DNA from: Alphaproteobacteria bacterium
GTDB taxonomy: Bacteria; Pseudomonadota; Alphaproteobacteria; Micavibrionales; Micavibrionaceae
Direction of reading: 5' to 3'
NCBI GenBank assembly: GCA_020445145.1
Contig: JAGRHC010000008.1
Coordinates: 1 to 64,000 of the forward strand
DNA length: 64,000 nucleotides
The notes under the pieces were generated by a model, which was given only the letters and a program-made list of their open reading frames with translations, was not told where the DNA came from and did no database searches. The stretch's first letter is position 1, and each line of letters begins with the position of its first letter. Positions 50,403 through 63,997 of the stretch are shown piece by piece. Both the position numbers and the translations under genes were made by a program.

Positions 50403-50477
50403 GCGAGTGTAGCTCAGGGGTAGAGCATTACCTTGCCAAGGTAAGGGCCGAGGGTTCGAATCCCTTCACTCGCTCCA
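50403..50477 (+). tRNA. tRNA-Gly (anticodon GCC), island attachment site
   Basis: A 75-base tRNA with encoded CCA. Acceptor stem GCGAGTG / CACTCGC, anticodon stem-loop TTACCTTGCCAAGGTAA with anticodon GCC, and T arm GAGGGTTCGAATCCCTT are all standard. A hairpin (AACCTTG / CAAGGTT, about 50514-50533) follows and may terminate it. The integrase gene begins 168 bases further on, the usual arrangement for an island inserted at a tRNA 3' end. Confidence 0.97.
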
Positions 50478-50645: not shown

Positions 50646-51881
50646 ATGAAACTCACGGATACAGCGTGCAAAGCCGCAAAACCCAAGGAAAAGCCATACA
50701 GGCTTGCCGATGGCGGCGGGCTGTATCTCGAAATCACCCCTACGGGCAGCAAACTCTGGCGCATGAAATACAGGGTGAAGGTCGGCGACAAGTTTAAGGA
50801 AAAGCGCCTATCGCTTGGCATTTATCCGACCATCACCTTAGCCGAAGCCCGCGAGGGACGAGAAAAAGCCAAGAAATTGCTTGCTCAAGGAATCGACCCC
50901 TCCACACAAAAGCAGGAAGAGAAAAAAGAAGCCGCCCGTGATGCGCAAAACACCTTCAAGGCTCTGGCGCTGGAATGGCATGAGAATTTCAAGGATAAAT
51001 GGACCAAACGCCATGCCGATACGGTGCTGCGCCGCCTAGAGATGGATATTTTCCCCGAAATCGGCTCTATGCCGATCACGGAAATCAGACCCTCCCATAT
51101 CATTGCCGCCTTAAAAAAAGTACAAAAGCGCGGCGCGTATGAACCCGCCCACCGCTTGCGGCAATATTGCGCCCAAGTGTTCCGCCACGCCATCATCCAT
51201 GAAATTGCGACCGCAAACCCCGCCGCCGAAATCGGGGCAGTCTTGAAACCTGTTAAAAAGAGCCATTACGCTTGCCTTGATATAAAGGAAATCCCCGAAC
51301 TTCTGAACGCGATAGACCGCAACGATGCAAGGCTGCATACGGATACGAGGCTGGCTATTCGCCTTCTCATGCTAACCTTCGTGCGCACGAAAGAACTGAT
51401 CGAGGCCAAATGGGAGGAATTTGATCTGGACAATGCGCAATGGGTGATCCCCGCCGAGCGCATGAAAATGAGAAACGAGCATGTCGTTCCCCTCTCCCGG
51501 CAAGCCGTGGACATGCTCAAAGATTTGAAGGAGCGAAACGAGCGATGGGAATGGGTGTTCCCCGGCCATCACTCCCCACGTAAGCACATGAGCAACAATA
51601 CCATCCTGAAAGGGCTAGCCCGCTTGGGCTTTCAAGGGCGCATGACCGGGCATGGCTTCCGGGCGCTGGCCATGAGCACGATCAAGGAAAAGCTGAATTA
51701 CCGCCATGAAGTGATCGACCGCCAGCTTGCCCACGCCCCGCAAAGCATGGTGCAACGCGCGTATGATCGCGCAAAATTTTTGGATGAGCGCAAAGTTATG
51801 ATGCAGGATTGGGCGGATTATCTGGATAACATTGCACAAAATGGGACGGTAATAGTTGGAAAATTTGCCAGAAAAGCTTAA
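50646..51881 (+). CDS. P4-type tyrosine integrase
   Basis: A 411-residue recombinase. The N-terminal DUF4102 arm-binding domain (about 1-90) starts KLTDTACKAAKPKEKPYRLADGGGLYLE; a core-binding domain follows (about 100-190). The catalytic domain has Arg in FVRTKELIEAKW, then HVVPLS, HGFRALAMS (His/Arg) and the Tyr region AYDRAKFLDERKVMMQ. All catalytic residues appear present, so it should be active. It lies next to tRNA-Gly and is oriented away from it. Codon use (GCC, GGC, CGC) differs from the host genes to the left. Confidence 0.95.
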   Translation: MKLTDTACKAAKPKEKPYRLADGGGLYLEITPTGSKLWRMKYRVKVGDKFKEKRLSLGIYPTITLAEAREGREKAKKLLAQGIDPSTQKQEEKKEAARDAQNTFKALALEWHENFKDKWTKRHADTVLRRLEMDIFPEIGSMPITEIRPSHIIAALKKVQKRGAYEPAHRLRQYCAQVFRHAIIHEIATANPAAEIGAVLKPVKKSHYACLDIKEIPELLNAIDRNDARLHTDTRLAIRLLMLTFVRTKELIEAKWEEFDLDNAQWVIPAERMKMRNEHVVPLSRQAVDMLKDLKERNERWEWVFPGHHSPRKHMSNNTILKGLARLGFQGRMTGHGFRALAMSTIKEKLNYRHEVIDRQLAHAPQSMVQRAYDRAKFLDERKVMMQDWADYLDNIAQNGTVIVGKFARKA

Positions 51882-51889
51882 TAAAGCTT

Positions 51890-52411
51890 ATGGCAAAAGA
51901 AAAACATGATTCTCCGAAGGCTCACGCTCAAGAAGCAGACGGATATGATTATCCCGACATGCTGATGCCGGAGGCGTGGTTAAAACGCGAACCGCCTGAA
52001 AACTTTATTCATGATGGCATTTGGCTTCCAGAATATTTCAATATCACAGGAAAAGAACTTTATCCCGACATTTGGAACGAGACAGAACTCTATGCGCGAT
52101 CTCCGCAAGAAATTGCCGAGTATAAAGAGAGCCTATTTCTATGGAGGACAAGAAAAGGTGCTTTGCGCTTCAGTGCGATGGTTGATGGGCCGATGGTTGA
52201 TGGGCCGATGGCCGATAATTCAGGCAAAATCGGGACACCCAAGGGCTTTGTAGGATCCCACAAAAACGGCGTTTATTTTCATGATAAGGAGGAAGAAGAC
52301 GAATCCTTTAATAGAAAGCAAAAAACCATAGGCACGATCATCGAAAAAATTCTTAACAATGAAATCCACCCTTTTCAAAATGATTATCGGGATGGCCATT
52401 GGTGGATATAG
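51890..52411 (+). CDS. Unrecognised island protein, C-terminus disrupted
   Basis: A 173-residue hydrophilic protein of unknown function that starts 8 bases after the integrase stop. Residues about 98-108 contain a small tandem repeat (MVDGPMVDGPMADN) from 15-base DNA repeats. The last 12 residues (NDYRDGHWWI) come from the first copy of a 56-bp duplication, read in a different frame from the copy in the next gene, where the DNA encodes MIIGMAIGGYSYDPKAS. So the natural C-terminus has probably been lost. Confidence 0.6.
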   Translation: MAKEKHDSPKAHAQEADGYDYPDMLMPEAWLKREPPENFIHDGIWLPEYFNITGKELYPDIWNETELYARSPQEIAEYKESLFLWRTRKGALRFSAMVDGPMVDGPMADNSGKIGTPKGFVGSHKNGVYFHDKEEEDESFNRKQKTIGTIIEKILNNEIHPFQNDYRDGHWWI

Positions 52412-52432
52412 TTACGATCCCAAGGCGTCAAA
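52377..52432. repeat. 56-bp direct repeat, copy 1
   Basis: Identical to 53026-53081, offset 649 bases (not a multiple of three). This copy covers the end of the gene at 51890-52411 and the start of the gene at 52399-53202. Confidence 0.97.
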
Positions 52433-53202
52433 TTGGAGAACACGGCGATAAAGCAGAAATACGCGAAGAATGGTGGCGTGAAAGAAGAATACGCTTTGTT
52501 TTTGAATACGGTTATCCGCATGGACACCCAACACATGGAATATATATTTCCAAAGAAACGCCCAAGCGCAAAGAAATAAAGCCCAAAGGGATAACCTGTC
52601 CGGAAGGCATTTGGTCACGAGAAGCATTTTGCCTGCTTGGTGAAAAAGAAGGAAATCTGGATAAAAACGTTGGCTGGCTTGCGCAGAGGCTTGCAGAAGT
52701 CCTTGTTCTGGAGCCGAGCATAGAAGTTTTTACAATAGACAGCTATACAGGACAGAAAAAAAGATTTGATAGAGATTTTCTACGCAGTCAAAACGCTGCA
52801 AAATGGTTTGTCGAAGGGCTGATCAAAGGCCAGCCGGGAGAAGGCATTTATATTTTTGTAAACAGGGAACAGTTTGAAAATTATCTGGCCGATAAACCGA
52901 TAGAAAATAAGGTAGCATCCCCCGAACCTGAAAATGCCAAACCTGCGAATAAGGAAAAAGAGTTACTGGGAAAACAGAAGACCACTGAAAAAAGTTTAGG
53001 AACGAGAGAACGGGACACGGTTCTAAAAATGATTATCGGGATGGCCATTGGTGGATATAGTTACGATCCCAAGGCGTCAAAAAGCCCGACCGCCAAAGAA
53101 ATTTCTGACGACCTTTTAAGGCAGGGAATCTCCGTTAGCGATGACACGATTCGCAAATGGCTGAAAGAAGCGGCGGAAATTTTACCGCCTGATACGGAAT
53201 AA
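52399..53202 (+). CDS. Unrecognised island protein with conserved C-terminal helix-turn-helix-like domain
   Basis: Up to 267 residues. The middle (about 15-170) is a charged mixed alpha/beta region (KWFVEGLIKGQPGEGIYIFV). The last 60 residues (TRERDTVLKMIIGMAIGGYSYDPKAS then SPTAKEISDDLLRQGISVSDDTIRKWLKEA) look like a small DNA-binding or adaptor module common in island genes of this class. The start (TTG 52399) lies inside copy 1 of the 56-bp repeat and is uncertain, so the original N-terminus may be missing. Function is unknown. Confidence 0.6.
   Translation: MVDIVTIPRRQIGEHGDKAEIREEWWRERRIRFVFEYGYPHGHPTHGIYISKETPKRKEIKPKGITCPEGIWSREAFCLLGEKEGNLDKNVGWLAQRLAEVLVLEPSIEVFTIDSYTGQKKRFDRDFLRSQNAAKWFVEGLIKGQPGEGIYIFVNREQFENYLADKPIENKVASPEPENAKPANKEKELLGKQKTTEKSLGTRERDTVLKMIIGMAIGGYSYDPKASKSPTAKEISDDLLRQGISVSDDTIRKWLKEAAEILPPDTE
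53026..53081. repeat. 56-bp direct repeat, copy 2
   Basis: In this copy the DNA is read in the frame of the conserved C-terminal domain (MIIGMAIGGYSYDPKAS), so it is probably the original and copy 1 the duplicate. Confidence 0.97.
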
Positions 53203-53557: not shown

Positions 53558-54071
53558 GAAAAAGCGCACATATCCCGTGCGCTTGGTCAAAGAAAACTAT
53601 TCCTACACCGTCGAGCAGATTGCCGATCTGTTTGGAATAGACGTTGCCACCGTGCGCCGATGGATCAAGGATGAGGGGCTGGAGCGAATACCAAAGACCC
53701 GCCCCTTCCTCGTCCATAGCAGCGCGTTGCGCGCTTTCCTCCAAAAGAAAAAAGCCAAGCGCAAAAAATCATGTCAGCCGCATGAAGTGTTTTGCTTCAA
53801 ATGCCAAGCGCCGCGCACACCCAAAAACGGGACGGGAAAAATCAAAAAACAGCCCAATGGATCGCTTCTGTTTCAGGCGCAATGCGCGACCTGCAAAGGC
53901 AAAATCAACAAGGCCGTAAAGGGCAAAGATTGGTCGGAAAAACACCCTCTGGCCGCATATCTTCACAATGCGACAAAACAACATAATGGAAAGCACTCAC
54001 CGCATCGTAAATGTCAACTTCAAGGAGGCGATCAGTTATGTCTGAATTTAACCCCGCAAACGAGCGCCTGA
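53550..54071 (+). CDS. HTH protein with zinc-ribbon-like C-terminus
   Basis: A 173-residue protein. Residues about 15-45 form a MerR-like HTH (YTVEQIADLFGIDVATVRRWIKDEG) similar to excisionases. A Lys-rich linker is followed by two CxxC pairs (FCFKCQAPRTP and CATCKGK), a probable zinc ribbon (about 85-115). It lies between the AlpA-like gene and the second recombinase, overlapping the former by 8 bases and the latter by 34. It is probably an accessory protein of that recombinase. Confidence 0.75.
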   Translation: MAKKKRTYPVRLVKENYSYTVEQIADLFGIDVATVRRWIKDEGLERIPKTRPFLVHSSALRAFLQKKKAKRKKSCQPHEVFCFKCQAPRTPKNGTGKIKKQPNGSLLFQAQCATCKGKINKAVKGKDWSEKHPLAAYLHNATKQHNGKHSPHRKCQLQGGDQLCLNLTPQTSA

Positions 54072-55126
54072 AAAAGGAATATGAGGACGCTTTATTGCAC
54101 GGCGCGCACAAGGAACAGCGCACCGCCGATGCCGCATGGAAAGCGATCAACCTGTTTGAAGACTTTACCGGGAAAAAGGATTTTACGACCTTCAACACCG
54201 GGCAGGCCAAAGACTTCAAACGCTGGCTGATGAAGCGCAAAAATGAGAAGGACGAGCCTTTGAGCCTTTCGACCGTGAGCCATGTTTTAAGCAACGTGCG
54301 CGAGTTTTTCAAATGGCTAGCTGTACACCCGAAAGGCATCCGCAAAGTCGATGGGCAGGCCGTGGCTTATCTGCGCCTGTCCAATAATGATGAGCGCGCC
54401 GGACGCGCCACGCGGGAACAACCCGTGCCCACGATTGAGGAAGTCCGGCAAACCCTGCACACCATGCCGCATAAAACCGACATCGAAAAACGTAACCGCG
54501 CGCTTATGGCTTTTGTGGCGTTGACGGGCGTTCGGGATGCGGCCCTTGTAAGCCTGAAAATGAAAGACATTGACCTGCAAAAACGGGAAATCTGGCAAGA
54601 CCCGCGCCATGTTAAAACCAAGAACCGCAAGGGCATCACCACCGTTTTCATGCCGTTTGATCCCTTGTGGGAGGAGATTGTAACGGATTGGGTGAATTTC
54701 ACGCGCGGTACGCTGGGCTTCAAGGATGATGATCCTCTTTTTCCAAAGGAGCTTGTCATTCCCGATCCTGAGAAGATGAAATTCACCTCGGCGGGATTGT
54801 CACGGGAACACTGGAACAACGCCAATCAAGTGCGCGGCATTTTCAAGGATGCATTTACAAAAGCCGGAGTGCCTTATTACCGCCCGCACGCTTTCCGCAA
54901 GATGCTGGTGATCTGGGCGATGGAACATTGCAGCCAGTACGAGGTCAAGGCTATAAGCCAGAATATCGGGCACGAACATGCCATGACCACCTATAACGCC
55001 TATGGCCCCATTATGATGCACGACCAGCGCAAGGCCATTGCGAATATCGGCAAAGGAAACCCAAATTTGCAAAACGTGCCGATGGATGAGCTTTTGAAAG
55101 AGGTAAGCAGGCGGGCGGGGAAATGA
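54038..55126 (+). CDS. Second tyrosine recombinase
   Basis: A 362-residue recombinase without an arm-binding DUF4102 domain. A SAM-like core-binding domain (about 10-110) precedes the catalytic domain: Arg in LTGVRDAALVSLKMKDID, Lys in KTKNRKG, HAFRKMLVIWA, then IGHEHAMTTYNAYG with the final His and Tyr. All catalytic residues appear present. ATG 54038 has a good AAGGAGG site. Distinct in type from the integrase at 50646, so it may move a sub-element or resolve dimers. It is convergent with the peptidase gene, 2 bases apart. Confidence 0.9.
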   Translation: MSEFNPANERLKKEYEDALLHGAHKEQRTADAAWKAINLFEDFTGKKDFTTFNTGQAKDFKRWLMKRKNEKDEPLSLSTVSHVLSNVREFFKWLAVHPKGIRKVDGQAVAYLRLSNNDERAGRATREQPVPTIEEVRQTLHTMPHKTDIEKRNRALMAFVALTGVRDAALVSLKMKDIDLQKREIWQDPRHVKTKNRKGITTVFMPFDPLWEEIVTDWVNFTRGTLGFKDDDPLFPKELVIPDPEKMKFTSAGLSREHWNNANQVRGIFKDAFTKAGVPYYRPHAFRKMLVIWAMEHCSQYEVKAISQNIGHEHAMTTYNAYGPIMMHDQRKAIANIGKGNPNLQNVPMDELLKEVSRRAGK

Positions 55127-55754: not shown

Positions 55755-55875
55755 GTCGGCTCAACTCGTCTATTGTCAATATGCGATCACATAAGACATT
55801 ATAGGCTGTTAAAAATATTTACAATTCAAGACTGCACGCTTTGGAACGTAAGCAATACAGGGTAAGTTGGTTTTC

Positions 55876-58800
55876 ATGAATAATGAGCTAAACACACTAC
55901 TAAAAAAATACCGGGACCATTCAAAAACCGAGCGTGAAAAAGGCGAGTATTTCGAGCTTTTATCGCAAGACTTCCTGAAAAACGATCCCGTGCTGGCCCA
56001 GCAATACAGCGAAGTCTGGACATATTCCAAATGGGCGGAATTGCAAGGGATCGACAAGCGCGATACCGGCATTGATCTGGTCGCAAAACTGGCCGATGAA
56101 GAAGGCTACTGCGCCATTCAATGCAAATTCTATGATGAGGATCACAGGATCAGCAAAAAGGACATTGATTCCTTTTTCACCGCATCCGGCAAAGCGCCAT
56201 TCACGCGCCGCCTGATTATCGACACCACCAGCGCGGATTGGAGCGAACATGCCGAAGATGCGCTGGTCGGACAAAGCATCCCGGTCAATCGGATCGGCCT
56301 TAGCGATCTGGAGCAAAGCCCGATTGACTGGAGCGCCTATGCACGCGAGCAAAAGGTTGTTTTGAAGGAAAAGAAATCGCTTTTCCCGCACCAGCAAAGA
56401 GCCCTGAAAGACGTTCAGGACGGCTTGACGGAGGCCGAGCGTGGCAAGCTGGTGATGGCGTGCGGCACGGGCAAGACGTTTACCAGCCTTAAAATCGCCG
56501 AAACGCTGGCGGGAAAAGGCAAGCGGGTTTTGTATCTTGTCCCCTCGCTGGCCCTCATGTCGCAAACCGTGCGCGAATGGTCGAACGATACGAAAACCCC
56601 GCTTCATTCCTTTGCCGTGTGTTCCGATGTGCAGGTGGGCAAGCGCAAGGCCAAGGACGATTTGTCCGATATTAACGCCCATGATCTGGCTTTCCCCGCC
56701 ACAACGGACGCGATGAAGCTGGCGGAAAAAATGTCCGGCGATTTGGCCGGAAATGACGCCGCCGAGAAAATGACGGTAGTGTTTTCCACCTATCAATCCA
56801 TTCAGGTGATTTCCGATGCCCAGCACAAATACGGGATGCCTGACTTTGACCTGATTATCTGCGATGAAGCCCACCGGACAACGGGTGCGAAACTGGCCGG
56901 GGAAGACGATTCCAATTTCGTGAAGGTGCATTATCAGGACTACATCAAAGGCAAGAAACGCATTTACATGACCGCCACGCCGCGCATTTACGGGGAAGCC
57001 GTTAAAAGCAAAGCCAAGGAAGTGGACGCCGTGCTGTGCTCTATGGATGATGCGGAATTATTCGGGGAGACATTGCACGAAATCACCTTCTCCGAAGCCG
57101 TATCCCAAGGGCTTCTGACCGATTACAAGGTGATCGTTCTGGCCGTGGATGAAGAGGTCGTAAGCGCCAGCGTGCAAAAGCGCCTGTCCAACGAGCATAC
57201 CGAGCTCGATCTGGATGACGCCACCAAGATTATCGGCTGTTACCGCGCTCTGACCAAGCTGGATTTACAGGACGATTTGCGGGCCGATCAAAAGCCGATG
57301 CAGCGCGCCGTGGCCTTTTGTAACACGATTGCCAATTCCAAACTGATCGTGGACGAGTTTTCCTTGGTGGTGGAGGAATACCTCGCCGAAATGGGTGCGG
57401 AAGAAAACGCCATGCTCCAATGCGAGGCCATGCACGTGGACGGCACCTATAACGCCAAGGAAAGGGAAAAGCTGATCGACTGGCTCAACAATGTGGAGGA
57501 TGCCAACACCTGCCATATCTTGAGCAATGCGCGCTGCTTGTCGGAGGGCGTGGACGTGCCCGCCCTTGACGCCATCATGTTTATGCACCCCCGCAAATCA
57601 CAGATCGACGTGGTGCAGTCGGTCGGACGCGTGATGCGCCGCGCGGAAGGCAAATCGCTGGGCTATGTGATCCTGCCTGTGGGCGTGCCCGCCGGGATTC
57701 CCGCCGATGAAGCCCTGAACAATAACGAGAAATACAAGGTGGTCTGGCAAATCCTGAATGCTTTGCGGTCGCATGATGACCGTTTCGAGGCCGGGATAAA
57801 CCGCATTGATCTGGGCGAGAAAAACTCCCGCATCGAAATCGTGGCCGTGGCCGATACATTGCCCCAGCGCGTGGAGAAAACCCCGCCGGGATCGAATATT
57901 GGGCAAGGAGCCGCCGCCAGCGATGATGACAACCGGGGCGACAGCACGCCCAAGCCCGCCGCGCCGAAACAAACATCCTTCGCCTTTGATGAGTTTTCAA
58001 AGGCCATCCTTGCCCGCATCGTCAAAAAATGCGGCACGCGGGATTACTGGGAAGACTGGGCAAACGATATTGCCGACATCGCGCAAAAGCATATCTCCCG
58101 GATCAAGGGCATCCTGAAAAATGAGGGCAAGGAACGCAAAGCCTTTGACGCATTTTTAGAGGAAATCCGCGATGATCTGAACGACAGCATCACACAGGAA
58201 GACGCCATCGAAATGCTGGCGCAGCACCTCATCACCAAGCCTGTGTTTGAGGCTTTGTTTGAAGGCTACAGCTTTGCCAAAAACAACCCCGTTTCGGTGG
58301 CGATGCAAAAGGTTCTGGACGTTCTGGACGAACACACGCTGGAAAAGGAATCGGAATCCCTACAGAAATTCTATAACTCCGTGCGCCGCCGGGCGGAGGG
58401 GATCGAAAGTGCCGAGGCAAAACAGCGCATCGTGGTGCAGCTTTACGATAAATTCTTCCGCAACGCCTTCCCGCGCCTGACCGAAAAGCTGGGCATCGTC
58501 TATACGCCCGTGGAGGTCGTGGATTTCATCATCCATTCGGTGAACGATGTGCTCAAAAGCGAATTTGGCCAAACGCTGGGATCAAAGGGCGTGCATATTC
58601 TCGACCCCTTCACAGGGACGGGAACCTTTATCACCCGGCTTTTGCAAAGCGGCCTGATCGCGCCGGAGGAATTGCCCTACAAGTATGAAAACGAGATTCA
58701 CGCGAACGAGATTGTTTTGCTGGCCTATTACATCGCCGCGATCAATATCGAGCAGGTCTATCACGATGCAGCCGCACAGGATGAAGGTGAATACAAACCC

Positions 58801-60783
58801 TTCAAGGGCATTTGCCTGACCGATACCTTCCAGCTTTACGAAAAGGAAGATTTGGTGAGCCGCCTTCTGGTCGATAACTCCAGCCGCCGCCAACGGCAAA
58901 AGGAACTGGATATTCGCGTCATCATCGGCAACCCGCCTTATTCGGCGGGACAAAAAAGTGAAAACGATAATTCTGCAAATGTGGAATACAAACATTTGGA
59001 TAATAGAATAGCTGAAACTTACGTTTCCAATTCACTACGACAAGGTGGTAAGCGGGCAACGTATGACTCATATATCCGCGCCATTCGCTGGGGGTCTGAC
59101 CGGATCGGGGAAAGCGGCGTCATGTCCTATGTCTCCAATGCCGGGTGGATCGACGGCAACGCGATGGACGGGATGCGCCACTGTCTGGCCGAGGAATATT
59201 CCAGCCTCTATATCTTCCATTTGCGGGGTAATCAAAGAACGCAGGGCGAATTATCGCGCAAGGAAGGCGGAAAAATTTTTGGATCGGGTAGCCGTGCGCC
59301 GATTGCCATTTCCCTTTTTGTCAAAAACCCGAAGGCAAAAGACCACGGCAAAATCTATTTCCACGACATCGGCGATTACCTAAGCCAGAAAGAAAAACTG
59401 GACATCATCCGCAATGTCAAAAGCATCGAGGGCATCACCGCACAAAACGGCTGGCAAACCATCGTACCGGATCAATATAATGACTGGATCAACCAACGGG
59501 ATGAGAGTTTTGACAGTTTTATTGGGACATACGACAAAAAAGATTCAAAGAACAATCTAATTTTCCAAAACAGTTCTAGCGGCGTCCTTACAAGCCGTGA
59601 CGCTTGGATTTACAATTTCTCTAAAGAAATTCTAAAAAATAATATTTCCAACTTCATAGAATTTTATAACCATGAAAGACTCCGGTTCAATAAGGTAACT
59701 GATGGCAACGACAATGTTGACTTAAATAAGTTTCTTAATAATGACCCTAAAAAGATAAGTTGGGGGGTCAATATTAAGTCAGATATAAAAAATAATGTAA
59801 CAAAGGATCACGATCAAAAACACTATACTATAGGGATCTATCGCCCTTTTACAAAGATATGGATGTACGCAGACAAGAGTTTAAGTCATAGCTTTTATTC
59901 CATACAAAGCATATATCCTCACAGTAGCTCAAATGATCTTTCAATTTTTGTTAATGGAGCTGGCTCGGATAAAGGCTTTTCTTGCCTTATGGTTTCTTCT
60001 ATACCGAATTACCATACTCTTGACACAGGCCAATGCTTTCCCCTCAAACTCTATGAAAAGACGGAAGGCACCGAGGGCGGATTATTCGCCGGGCAGGCAT
60101 CCGAAAACGGCTACCGCGTGAAGGACGGGATCACCGATGCGGGGCTGGCGCATTTCAGGGCCGCCTATTCGGGCGAAAAGATCACCAAGGAAGATGTGTT
60201 CTATTATATCTATGGCCTGCTCCATTCGGAGGATTACCGCGCCCGCTATGCCGATAATCTATCCAAACAACTGCCCCGCATCCCGTGCGTCAAAACGCCT
60301 TCCGATTTTTGGGCGTTCTCAAAGGCCGGGCGCGCACTGGCGGAACTGCATGTGAACTATGAAACCGTGGAGCCTTACCCCGTGACCTATAAGGAAGGCG
60401 CGCTGTTTATGGATCAACTCAAACCCGCAGATTATCGGGTGGAGAAAATGAAATTCGGCAAGCGTGGCAAGGAAACGGATAAATCAACCGTGATCTATAA
60501 CCACAAAATCACCATGACCGATATTCCCCTCGCGGCCTATGATTACGTGGTGAACGGCAAACCCGCCCTCGAATGGGTGATGGAGCGTCAAGGCGTCAAA
60601 ACCGACAAGGCAAGCGGCATCGTCAACGATGCGAATTTATATGCCCTCGAAACCGTAGGCGATGCGGCCTATCCGCTCAAACTCTTCCAACGCGTCATCA
60701 CGGTAAGTTTAGAGACCATGAAAATCGTCCGCGCCTTGCCGAAACTGGAGATACAGGAAGAGAAGAAGGATAAGGCGGCGTAA
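55876..60783 (+). CDS. Type ISP single-polypeptide restriction-modification enzyme
   Basis: About 1635 residues, close to LlaGI-type enzymes. The N-terminal Mrr-like nuclease has a PD-(D/E)XK pattern (GIDLVAK with D67, then IQCK with Q82 and K84). The SF2 helicase has Walker A (CGTGKT, about 197-203), DEAH (about 329), MTATPR, and motif VI (QSVGRVMRR). A coupler leads to the gamma N6-adenine methyltransferase with motif I (DPFTGTGTF, about 910) and NPPY (about 1018-1021). The last 450 residues, partly more AT-rich (59.5-60 kb), form the target-recognition domain. One protein both methylates and restricts, translocating between head-to-head sites. All catalytic motifs look intact. ATG 55876 is taken as the start; TTG 55867 is possible. 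Confidence 0.93.
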   Translation: MNNELNTLLKKYRDHSKTEREKGEYFELLSQDFLKNDPVLAQQYSEVWTYSKWAELQGIDKRDTGIDLVAKLADEEGYCAIQCKFYDEDHRISKKDIDSFFTASGKAPFTRRLIIDTTSADWSEHAEDALVGQSIPVNRIGLSDLEQSPIDWSAYAREQKVVLKEKKSLFPHQQRALKDVQDGLTEAERGKLVMACGTGKTFTSLKIAETLAGKGKRVLYLVPSLALMSQTVREWSNDTKTPLHSFAVCSDVQVGKRKAKDDLSDINAHDLAFPATTDAMKLAEKMSGDLAGNDAAEKMTVVFSTYQSIQVISDAQHKYGMPDFDLIICDEAHRTTGAKLAGEDDSNFVKVHYQDYIKGKKRIYMTATPRIYGEAVKSKAKEVDAVLCSMDDAELFGETLHEITFSEAVSQGLLTDYKVIVLAVDEEVVSASVQKRLSNEHTELDLDDATKIIGCYRALTKLDLQDDLRADQKPMQRAVAFCNTIANSKLIVDEFSLVVEEYLAEMGAEENAMLQCEAMHVDGTYNAKEREKLIDWLNNVEDANTCHILSNARCLSEGVDVPALDAIMFMHPRKSQIDVVQSVGRVMRRAEGKSLGYVILPVGVPAGIPADEALNNNEKYKVVWQILNALRSHDDRFEAGINRIDLGEKNSRIEIVAVADTLPQRVEKTPPGSNIGQGAAASDDDNRGDSTPKPAAPKQTSFAFDEFSKAILARIVKKCGTRDYWEDWANDIADIAQKHISRIKGILKNEGKERKAFDAFLEEIRDDLNDSITQEDAIEMLAQHLITKPVFEALFEGYSFAKNNPVSVAMQKVLDVLDEHTLEKESESLQKFYNSVRRRAEGIESAEAKQRIVVQLYDKFFRNAFPRLTEKLGIVYTPVEVVDFIIHSVNDVLKSEFGQTLGSKGVHILDPFTGTGTFITRLLQSGLIAPEELPYKYENEIHANEIVLLAYYIAAINIEQVYHDAAAQDEGEYKPFKGICLTDTFQLYEKEDLVSRLLVDNSSRRQRQKELDIRVIIGNPPYSAGQKSENDNSANVEYKHLDNRIAETYVSNSLRQGGKRATYDSYIRAIRWGSDRIGESGVMSYVSNAGWIDGNAMDGMRHCLAEEYSSLYIFHLRGNQRTQGELSRKEGGKIFGSGSRAPIAISLFVKNPKAKDHGKIYFHDIGDYLSQKEKLDIIRNVKSIEGITAQNGWQTIVPDQYNDWINQRDESFDSFIGTYDKKDSKNNLIFQNSSSGVLTSRDAWIYNFSKEILKNNISNFIEFYNHERLRFNKVTDGNDNVDLNKFLNNDPKKISWGVNIKSDIKNNVTKDHDQKHYTIGIYRPFTKIWMYADKSLSHSFYSIQSIYPHSSSNDLSIFVNGAGSDKGFSCLMVSSIPNYHTLDTGQCFPLKLYEKTEGTEGGLFAGQASENGYRVKDGITDAGLAHFRAAYSGEKITKEDVFYYIYGLLHSEDYRARYADNLSKQLPRIPCVKTPSDFWAFSKAGRALAELHVNYETVEPYPVTYKEGALFMDQLKPADYRVEKMKFGKRGKETDKSTVIYNHKITMTDIPLAAYDYVVNGKPALEWVMERQGVKTDKASGIVNDANLYALETVGDAAYPLKLFQRVITVSLETMKIVRALPKLEIQEEKKDKAA

Positions 60784-60995
60784 TGAGATTGATAGACGAA
60801 CTTAAACAAAAATTTCCTGATATTACCGATTGGCAGGTTGAACAAGGCAAACGCCATGAGAAGGAGCGCATAAATCAATCAACCGAGACAATAGAGTTTC
60901 TTGCAATCTCGCCAGACCAGACGCAAAAAAGGCGCTTTATTTATACGAATTTCTCCGATTGCGAAGGAACCAAAGAAAGCTGGCGTGAAGTCTAA
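60783..60995 (+). CDS. Unrecognised 70-residue protein coupled to the type ISP enzyme
   Basis: Its ATG overlaps the last base of the type ISP stop (TAATG), so it is translationally coupled. It is charged and soluble (MRLIDELKQKFPDITDWQVEQGKRHEKER), with no recognised family, and overlaps the opposing B3-like gene stop by 4 bases. It could be an accessory factor for the restriction enzyme. Confidence 0.6.
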   Translation: MRLIDELKQKFPDITDWQVEQGKRHEKERINQSTETIEFLAISPDQTQKRRFIYTNFSDCEGTKESWREV

Positions 60996-62032
60996 GACAG
61001 CGCGGTTTTCCCCGAATCACGTTGTTCACCCAAGCGCCAGAAATACATATCGACAATTTTCATGACCGGATAATTCACCCCGTGCGAGGAGACACGCGCC
61101 TGCGCTTTTTCAAAATCCTGTTTTTGTTCCAGGCAAAAAGCAATCATTTCGCTGAAATTCTTTTTGTTCAAATAGGAATAGCTCAATCCGTGATGTTTTA
61201 TTCCTGCGATAAAAAAACGATCATACGCCGGGATGCAGCCCAAAGTCCCCATGAGAATTTTGGTGGCCAAGGTGTCCGTTACATTAACCTCTCGCCTCGG
61301 AAGCTCCGTTGTTTTCCTGTAAAAATTTTTTAGCCAGTCAATCAATTCAAAAATCAACTCGACCTCGTTTTCATCGTTCTTGTTCAAACGATCCAAGGAT
61401 ATGTCTCTAAGACCCCTATATCTGGGGTTTAATATCTCTTTAACCGCCCCCTCATGTATCCGGTAATCTTTTTGCAAAAGGAAACTGGAGCCACGATACA
61501 TGCCCCAGCTAGCAAGATAAAAACCCAAGTGAAGACTGGCCAGATCATAGTTTGTAGGATTTGCCCCAAAGAATTGATAGCAATGTTCCCATGATCGGAA
61601 CCGATGATGCTTATCGCCCCTCATGCTTTTGTGAAATTCGGTAACTTCGGAAAGAAGGTCATCGGCTTTATTCATATGCGGAAGTTTCTTCCGTGATTTC
61701 TCATGCAAGCATTTTTGAATAGGTATGGTTTTTTTGCCATCAGTGATTATCTTAATGGCCTCTGGCCCTAAAATCTCAATAGTTACACGATCTCCAAGGT
61801 TACAATTTTTATGAAACCAGTTTGTTAACTCCGGCCCCACCATAATCCTCGGCACACCATTTTTGTTCGCGCTTCTATTTACGCGGCCCATAAGTTTGTA
61901 CTTATCACCGTTCAAAAAAACGCTGATCGGACCTTCCTTTGGTCTGACATAATTTGAAACGCTGACCCCAAGATTAAAAAACCCTTTGTCGTAGTATGTT
62001 TTATGCAGAGTAAGCGGGTACTTATGTCCCAT
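60992..62032 (-). CDS. Unrecognised protein with possible B3-like DNA-binding N-terminus
   Basis: A 346-residue protein, third in the leftward operon, 17 bases behind the HIRAN gene. Residues 1-100 look like a beta-barrel DNA-binding module of the B3/EcoRII-N type: GFFNLGVSVSNYV, then GRVNRSANKNGVPRIMVGPELTNWF and LGDRVTIEIL, with many Arg/Lys/Asn. Residues 130-346 are helical with FRSWEHCYQFF, LHLGFYLASWGMYRGSSFL and LGCIPAYDRFFIAG, a conserved-looking but unnamed domain. No nuclease motif is evident. It may be the DNA-binding or target-recognition partner of the kinase and HIRAN proteins. The B3 call is tentative. Confidence 0.55.
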   Translation of the reverse strand: MGHKYPLTLHKTYYDKGFFNLGVSVSNYVRPKEGPISVFLNGDKYKLMGRVNRSANKNGVPRIMVGPELTNWFHKNCNLGDRVTIEILGPEAIKIITDGKKTIPIQKCLHEKSRKKLPHMNKADDLLSEVTEFHKSMRGDKHHRFRSWEHCYQFFGANPTNYDLASLHLGFYLASWGMYRGSSFLLQKDYRIHEGAVKEILNPRYRGLRDISLDRLNKNDENEVELIFELIDWLKNFYRKTTELPRREVNVTDTLATKILMGTLGCIPAYDRFFIAGIKHHGLSYSYLNKKNFSEMIAFCLEQKQDFEKAQARVSSHGVNYPVMKIVDMYFWRLGEQRDSGKTALS

Positions 62033-62049
62033 AAAATTCTCCCAAAATA

Positions 62050-62781
62050 TTACTTGGGCATTACTTGCACCAAGGCCGAAATTTTAGGCCGTTCCAGCGT
62101 ACCGTTAATTTTCGTGATGCTGGCCGCGATGTCATACCGCCCCAAGGCATGATGCGCGAAATACTGGCTATAGCCGCGCGGCACATAGCCGAGTTTCGTT
62201 TCCCCCGTGTAAATCGCAATCGCGTCCGGGTCTTTGTCGTTCTCCGGTTCCGGCACAAAACGAACCTCCTTGCCCAAGAGGGATTGAATGGGTTGGATTT
62301 CCATCCCGTCACAATGCCGGAAACCTGCAATTTCGATCACCAGATCAAAGGGCGGCATCATGTTTTCCAGATCGGGAAAGAACGAAAACCCGTCCCCCGT
62401 CAATTCCCCGCGCGTATAGGCCAGAATTTGCATCGTGGAGAGGTTCCCCGCTTGTTCCGGGGGAAGACGGTAAGAACGCAAATACTCCGGGTAATCCGAA
62501 CGGCTGGGGCTGGCAATGCGTTTGGACAGAATGTCTTTCACATTGCCGTTATAGATTTTTCCCGCCTCATAAGGATAGGCGGTCATACCGCTAAACTGCT
62601 CATGCGTGCGCGCTTCTTTTGTATCCTCGTTATCGTAATATTCCAGAAGCCAGTTGCCGTTTTCCGCGCGCACTTCCCCGACAACGAAACGCTTCCCATT
62701 GTTTTCATTGTTTTGCAGGTTCATGATCTGCCAGATCACTAGAAGCTTTTCCGGCGTCATTAAGTGTTCAACAAATTTCAT
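62050..62781 (-). CDS. HIRAN-domain protein, possible HipS/HipA-N-lobe-like N-terminus
   Basis: A 243-residue protein. The C-terminal 95 residues (about 147-240) are a HIRAN domain: EIAGFRHCDGMEIQPIQSLLGKEVRFVPEPENDKDPDAIAIYTG and LGYVPRGYSQYFA. HIRAN domains bind DNA ends or 3' ssDNA in helicases such as HLTF. The N-terminal part has DYPEYLRSYRLPPEQ and LAYTRGELTGDGFSF, which resembles the small N-terminal subdomain of HipA (HipS in the HipBST system). ATG 62781 overlaps the kinase stop (ATGA), so the two proteins are made together. Known HIRAN proteins suggest sensing of damaged or foreign DNA. Confidence 0.78.
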   Translation of the reverse strand: MKFVEHLMTPEKLLVIWQIMNLQNNENNGKRFVVGEVRAENGNWLLEYYDNEDTKEARTHEQFSGMTAYPYEAGKIYNGNVKDILSKRIASPSRSDYPEYLRSYRLPPEQAGNLSTMQILAYTRGELTGDGFSFFPDLENMMPPFDLVIEIAGFRHCDGMEIQPIQSLLGKEVRFVPEPENDKDPDAIAIYTGETKLGYVPRGYSQYFAHHALGRYDIAASITKINGTLERPKISALVQVMPK

Positions 62782-63797
62782 GCTCCAATAGCCTCTTGCG
62801 CCCTCTGATGCCTTGCCGTGAGCAGCCTCGTCATAAAATCGGCGCGCCGGGGCGTTAGACAATATTCAGGGTTTTGTATATCAAATTCCGTGAGTCTCTT
62901 TATATCTTCGCATAGCGGTGATGGGTCTTGCGACAAAATTCTGGCCATTTCCGGCTGTGTTTGTGGATATGTAGATGCCAGTTTTTGCAATAATTCAAAA
63001 TGCCCGACATGTCTGGGGTCGTTTATACCCCAGCGCATGTGATGCGTCCCTTTATCAATATAAGCACCAAGATTTTGAAGTTTAGACGGCATTTTCTGCG
63101 CCAAAACCTCGTATCCCATCGCCGTACCGTTATCAAAGGCGGGTGATAGATCAATGTTATATCGCCCCGTTTGATCGAAATAGGATATGACTTCCCAATT
63201 TTCCTGATGGCGATCCGTGTTCCCGATCAGGCAATCGAGCAAAAGCATCCTTGCCCATTTGATCTGCCAGTCAGAAATCCCCATGTCCTTAAAAAGCTCA
63301 ATAATGGTTTCAAAATTATGCTGGCTTCCCTTATCCCGATCATAATCGGGGATTTGCAGGGACATAAAATCGCCGCCCCTGTCAACACGCGCTTGCGGCG
63401 CTTGGGGGTAGCCATGAAACCATTCGATCAGGCAGGCATATTCCTTTTGCTCCGCACCCGGCACCGTCCGGCACGCAACGAAGGCAGGCGGAACCTCTAT
63501 GCCGAGATACCGCCCGATTTTATAGGCGATAATCTCGATCCAGAATTGTTCATGGAAAATATAGCCGCTCTTTTTGCGTTCAAATGCTTTTTTATAAAGG
63601 TAGCGGTGTTCTGGAATAAGGAACGGGTAAACTTCTCCTGATGGGCACCGTACAGCAAATTTTGAGCGCGTGCCTTCCGCGTAAGGGTCAAAATCGCCGC
63701 CCAAAGACCAGCCCGTTATATCCACGATTTGACCGGGCTTTTGTTCCGTTTCAGGAGGCTTGTAAAACTGGCTGTATTTCTGAAAATCTGATGGCAT
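62778..63797 (-). CDS. HipA-like serine/threonine kinase
   Basis: A 339-residue protein of the HipA family C-terminal kinase fold, lacking the N-terminal HipA subdomain. The catalytic loop is LLLDCLIGNTDRHQEN (D195 and N200) and the metal-binding Asp is in PAFDNGT (D222). Upstream residues include a Gly-rich segment (RSKFAVRCPSGEVYP) and a Lys-containing strand in the ATP-binding lobe. HipA and HipT phosphorylate aminoacyl-tRNA synthetases and stop growth. It is first in a leftward operon, coupled to the HIRAN gene, and no HipB-type HTH antitoxin gene is adjacent within the window. Confidence 0.85.
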   Translation of the reverse strand: MPSDFQKYSQFYKPPETEQKPGQIVDITGWSLGGDFDPYAEGTRSKFAVRCPSGEVYPFLIPEHRYLYKKAFERKKSGYIFHEQFWIEIIAYKIGRYLGIEVPPAFVACRTVPGAEQKEYACLIEWFHGYPQAPQARVDRGGDFMSLQIPDYDRDKGSQHNFETIIELFKDMGISDWQIKWARMLLLDCLIGNTDRHQENWEVISYFDQTGRYNIDLSPAFDNGTAMGYEVLAQKMPSKLQNLGAYIDKGTHHMRWGINDPRHVGHFELLQKLASTYPQTQPEMARILSQDPSPLCEDIKRLTEFDIQNPEYCLTPRRADFMTRLLTARHQRAQEAIGA

Positions 63798-63985: not shown

Positions 63986-63997
63986 AATCCCTTCACT
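63986..63997. other. Candidate attR (12-base copy of tRNA-Gly 3' region)
   Basis: AATCCCTTCACT is identical to 50459-50470 in the T arm and acceptor stem of tRNA-Gly. The following three bases (TCC) differ from the tRNA (CGC), so this is either a short core, a decayed site, or chance. The window ends here, so the far side cannot be seen. Confidence 0.45.

Follow-up and report, generated by a model that had tools for sequence, protein, structure and literature searches.

Near the right-hand end of the window, by which we mean the whole 64,000-nucleotide stretch of contig JAGRHC010000008.1 analysed here, two adjacent genes encode a HipA-like kinase and a HIRAN-domain protein that, judged by sequence, are a new member of hipIN (PADLOC PDC-M03), a family with a predicted function. 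They are followed by a third gene, for an unusual fusion protein, and the first-pass annotation had read the three together as a system not described before. The observation itself is sound, but the pair is hipIN as already described (PMC8262856), and none of the other genomes examined has the third gene beside the pair. A new three-gene system is therefore unsupported; the proposal has one genome behind it and is unlikely. What the window holds is probably a defence island of about 13.5 kb at a tRNA-Gly gene with three separable cargos, namely a type ISP restriction-modification enzyme, the hipIN pair and a B3-helical protein.

The island and its genes

The features of the island, in window coordinates, are these:
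50403..50477, plus strand: tRNA-Gly, the likely integration site (ARAGORN)
50646..51881, plus strand: integrase-like gene adjoining the tRNA, read from its open reading frame and position
54011..55126, plus strand: second phage-type integrase (Pfam Phage_integrase, E = 1e-14)
55867..60783, plus strand: type ISP restriction-modification enzyme, a convergent neighbour (Pfam Type_ISP_C, E = 3.4e-109; ISP_coupler, E = 7.9e-54)
60992..62032, minus strand: third gene, for a B3-helical fusion protein of 346 aa with two modules and no family match, probably not a hipIN component; it does not adjoin hipIN elsewhere
61013..61672, minus strand: all-helical domain of the third protein (residues about 121-340), widespread, unnamed
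61733..62032, minus strand: residues 1-100 of the third protein, predicted from an AlphaFold2 model to be a B3-fold domain (its top matches are B3 domains)
62050..62781, minus strand: HipN, 243 aa, a HipS-like domain followed by a HIRAN domain
62778..63797, minus strand: HipI-type kinase, 339 aa, the HipA core lacking the N-subdomain
63986..63997, plus strand: att-like 12-base copy of the 3' part of tRNA-Gly, the probable right end of the island (exact AATCCCTTCACT match, similar flank)

The first-pass annotation had placed the three genes in a tRNA-integrated island opposite a type ISP enzyme, and both points are borne out, by the tRNA-Gly gene, the integrase-like gene and the att-like repeat, and by an enzyme gene that lies on the other strand and converges on them. 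The size of about 13.5 kb follows from the positions of the tRNA-Gly gene and of the copy of its 3' part. That copy is a degenerate att-like repeat, again with a similar flank, and just after it, where the contig ends (position 64457), comes a putative fragment of an acyl-CoA synthetase. The type ISP enzyme occupies the middle of the island, and hipIN and the third gene its right end. A 66-base direct repeat, 94% identical and 649 bases apart, also lies inside the island (52367-52432 and 53016-53081).

All three open reading frames proposed earlier are present on the minus strand with unchanged coordinates, and the spacing reported for them is seen in the sequence: the stop codon of the kinase gene and the start codon of the HIRAN gene overlap within the 4 bases ATGA, and the ATG of the third gene, with a GGGAG stretch in front of it, lies 17 bases past the hipN stop. 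The start of hipN is best read as 62781; a longer open reading frame from 62862 overlaps the kinase gene. Judged by this spacing, a single transcript for the kinase, the HIRAN gene and the third gene is plausible, and scans for promoters and terminators at the locus gave chance level only and were uninformative. The G+C fraction is 0.427 for the third gene, 0.512 for hipN and 0.481 for hipI. A 70-aa open reading frame at 60783-60995, which had no match in the family libraries, shares its first base with the end of the type ISP gene and its last 4 bases with the third gene.

The kinase and HIRAN protein pair

Pfam HipA_C covers residues 42-229 of the kinase (E = 3.5e-7), and the active-site motifs common to its relatives are intact, including the lysine of YLYK, the glutamate helix, GNTDRHQENW and DLSPAFDNG. 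The N-subdomain of HipA is absent, in agreement with the earlier reading of this gene, and the best PDB sequence match was CtkA (E = 0.006). The second protein carries a Pfam HIRAN domain (E = 4.3e-10), and the proposal that a HipS-like stretch precedes this domain held up in a profile-profile comparison, where the first half of HipN matched a 30-member HipA N-subdomain profile at 93% (E = 2.7e-7) as against 0.1-0.2% for three column-shuffled profiles. A single HipA sequence compared with the HipN profile gave nothing, and a PDB sequence search with HipN gave no credible match. Elsewhere in the same genome, on another contig, the HipA N-subdomain family is also matched within a 423-aa frame (L197, G000:C54:1817-2065).

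The PADLOC candidate profiles PDC-M03A and PDC-M03B match the kinase (E = 2.6e-35) and the HIRAN protein (E = 1.5e-29), respectively. The family, a proposed bacterial toxin-antitoxin pair of a kinase and a DNA-end sensor, was described in 2021 as hipIN, in which the gene for the HipI kinase precedes that for HipN, a protein with HipS-like and HIRAN parts; the fused form is HipL (PMC8262856). The pair in the window agrees with this description in gene order, in domain content, in a kinase without the N-subdomain and in overlapping or adjacent genes; it differs in the extra third gene, which neither belongs to the family as described nor shows conservation together with the pair. HipL has the same three domains in the same order, but in one gene rather than two. 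The split hipBST system (HipB, HipS and HipT) likewise separates the kinase from its N-subdomain, which a separate protein supplies, whereas here a HIRAN domain is added, the kinase gene comes first, no HTH protein is present and the B3 protein is no conserved counterpart. The first-pass annotation had cast the B3-like protein in the place of an HTH antitoxin. This role has no support, since hipIN as described has no HTH antitoxin and neither domain of the third protein is found beside hipIN in the other loci; when the three proteins were compared with the family libraries, none matched an HTH family.

For hipIN, recognition of phage DNA ends by the HIRAN domain has been proposed to activate the kinase and lead to abortive infection (PMC8262856). 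In the pair described here the likely ligands of the HIRAN domain are DNA ends or single-stranded DNA that arise in phage replication or damage. Binding them would free the kinase from inhibition and let it phosphorylate a target that is essential and may be related to translation, and growth would stop. The PDC systems of PADLOC come from a guilt-by-embedding approach and are mostly without experimental validation (PMC12988326), and in Gram-positive bacteria a HipA and HIRAN pair adjoins many diDNase genes (PMC11706625). A full-text literature search on the family names returned no relevant paper beyond PMC8262856, and in the literature searched we found no mention of PDC-M03 and no test of HipI toxicity neutralised by HipN or of phage defence by hipIN.

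Besides the window, 13 bacterial loci (L141, L142 and L144-L154) have hipI and hipN side by side, a count that includes four in which the kinase reading frame is broken or cut by a contig end (L146, L147, L149 and L153). They are also neighbours in three viral contigs (L156, L158 and L161), and in a fourth, Escherichia phage 899 (L157), they are fused; there a 1560-base gene spans HipN between replication and portal genes, consistent with the HipL type. In two further loci (L143 and L155) HipN is present and no kinase was detected. Single-sequence scans of viral sequences with HipN and with the third protein returned nothing.

The two domains of the third protein

The third protein had no match in the family libraries. 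Its description as B3-like stands, as a prediction, for residues 1-100, but had missed a second, non-B3 helical domain that makes up more than half of the protein. Similarity to residues 4-96 is seen in short plasmid proteins and at the C-terminus of longer ones, among them a protein with a GIY-YIG nuclease annotation. Residues 1-111 were modelled with AlphaFold2 from four sequences, at a mean pLDDT of 82; the model's best 30 Foldseek matches in the PDB were all B3-type domains, and the best 27 rows from VIA-align were B3 domains with Z from 9.4 to 5.2. On the strength of this model, residues 1-100 are predicted to adopt a B3 fold, as found in plant B3 factors and in the restriction enzymes EcoRII, BfiI, NgoAVII, LlaJI and UbaLAI. 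Identity to these domains is only 5-19%, and here, unlike in them, its partner in the fusion is a helical domain, with no nuclease recognised. Stand-alone B3-like proteins of about 100 aa occur on alphaproteobacterial and betaproteobacterial plasmids (L005 and L008), in L005 adjoining recombinase and partition genes.

The helical part was modelled separately from the B3 part, and its model is all helical, with pLDDT mostly above 90. PDB sequence searches with either part gave no credible match, and Foldseek of the full-length protein against the PDB and viral structures gave nothing significant. The best VIA-align rows of the helical part were HhH-GPD DNA glycosylases or DUF2419 at Z of 7.1 or below, values at which the tool warns of a mere common arrangement, and a profile-profile comparison of the helical part with HhH-GPD gave nothing. 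With a structural similarity this weak and no support from sequence, we claim neither a glycosylase identity nor such an activity for this half.

The helical domain has no family in Pfam, NCBIfam, PADLOC or PHROGs, and was not found in the plasmid collection. It was confirmed at 278 places in one genome scan, which relied on only two peptide patterns, and in 15 viral contigs. In most cases it forms a protein of its own, 220-240 residues long, and in some it carries extensions of other kinds at the N- or C-terminus; the B3-helical fusion is new, and full fusions are very rare within the material searched. In the window (61013-61672) and in loci L015-L109 the helical domain is strongly conserved, with the motifs SWEHCY, FYLASWGMYRGSS and GTLGCxPAYDRYF. 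The domain spans many bacterial phyla and some archaea and is fused to varied accessory modules. A larger question is thereby raised by hundreds of conserved copies in bacteria and archaea that are joined to differing modules, B3 among them, and have no Pfam model.

The third gene, hipIN and their neighbours

Co-occurrence of the genes across genomes had been set beforehand as a test of the three-part reading, and it was found for genes one and two and not for gene three. Searches with iterated profiles found neither hipI nor hipN in any of 95 helical-domain loci, and in the 13 bacterial loci besides this one and the 4 viral loci hipIN adjoins neither part of the third protein. A search of 15 genomes that have HipN did not find the helical domain, whereas three positive controls gave it in the same search. 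Only one of 49 helical-domain genomes has a full-length HipN, at a separate place, and eight have partial matches, mostly to the HIRAN part; related genomes of the same order that carry the helical domain have neither the B3 part nor a hipI match. Co-conservation of the trio finds no support in the helical-domain loci, the other hipIN loci and the 15 HipN genomes, although the missing second trio is weak evidence for this lineage in particular, because so few full fusions are available to be found in searchable material.

Restriction-modification genes were present at 17 of 80 helical-domain loci and in 2 of 39 control stretches, which were taken from those genomes (p = 0.03), and recombinase or transposase genes at 13/80 and 1/39 (p = 0.03); these enrichments are suggestive only, because some of the seeds derive from the case loci and the placing of the controls was not random. 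At L089 (2-2097) the gene for a type ISP enzyme, the kind that faces the third gene here, shares 1 base at its 3' end with the helical-domain gene, and a serine recombinase comes next. Around the stand-alone helical-domain genes of L015 and L017 are genes for an SNF2 helicase and for a type III methylase, joined in L017 by one for a DUF4391 protein. The third gene is most likely an independently acquired cargo whose product would be a DNA-binding protein tied to restriction-modification or mobile-element DNA; its separateness from hipIN is argued for by the loci and genomes counted above, by a G+C content below that of hipN, by the proximity of the helical domain to restriction-modification genes and by its position directly behind the type ISP enzyme in L089.

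The 17-base gap and the shared strand, which would suit co-transcription of all three genes, are points against an independent cargo, and together with the predicted DNA-binding fold they favour a true three-part system, in which the B3-helical protein would bind operator or invader DNA, regulate or trigger HipI-HipN and replace a HipB-type regulator. We consider such a system improbable, given that there is no second instance in the helical-domain loci or in other hipIN loci, that the HipN genomes searched have no helical domain and that the third gene differs in base composition. Lower still do we rate a B3-helical protein that acts as a new DNA-recognising component coupling the hipIN kinase to specific or modified DNA, with the helical half as a diverged glycosylase-like reader; this we regard as very improbable. 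Somewhat better placed, but still unlikely, is a third protein that serves the facing type ISP enzyme as an accessory, for example as a site-binding regulator or reader, with hipIN as unrelated cargo alongside. The overlap in L089, the type III restriction-modification genes around the helical-domain gene in L015 and L017 and the restriction-modification genes in 17 of 80 loci would all suit such an accessory, but here the third gene is convergent with the ISP gene and outside its operon, 63 of the 80 loci had no restriction-modification gene in the same test, and the enrichment is modest.

For the hipIN pair the defence reading, in which the HIRAN domain would sense phage or damaged DNA, draws on the PDC-M03A and PDC-M03B matches, the mechanism in PMC8262856, the intact kinase motifs, the HipS-like match and the conserved pairing, and on the fused form as phage cargo and the setting of its relatives. 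These settings were judged by inspection, the only count being restriction-modification genes in 4 of 15 hipIN loci. The gene run that contains hipIN in L148, L149 and L154 also encodes a DrmD/DpdE-like helicase and a DrmMI/type IIG-like methylase; the neighbour of hipIN in L151 is a type III restriction-modification system, and type I-C cas genes are near it in L144. The same settings argue against hipIN serving mainly to stabilise the island, as a maintenance (addiction) module, rather than to sense phage, a role for which a HIRAN domain would be unnecessary; its place at the end of a tRNA-integrated island and its presence as cargo in phage genomes leave that alternative a modest share of our belief, well short of an even one. 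The pair adds one member to a predicted kinase-based phage-defence family, and the relatives in defence islands and inside DISARM-like operons support direct testing of hipIN. In all three of the helicase-methylase loci hipIN lies between the helicase and the methylase, as if embedded in a DISARM-like system.
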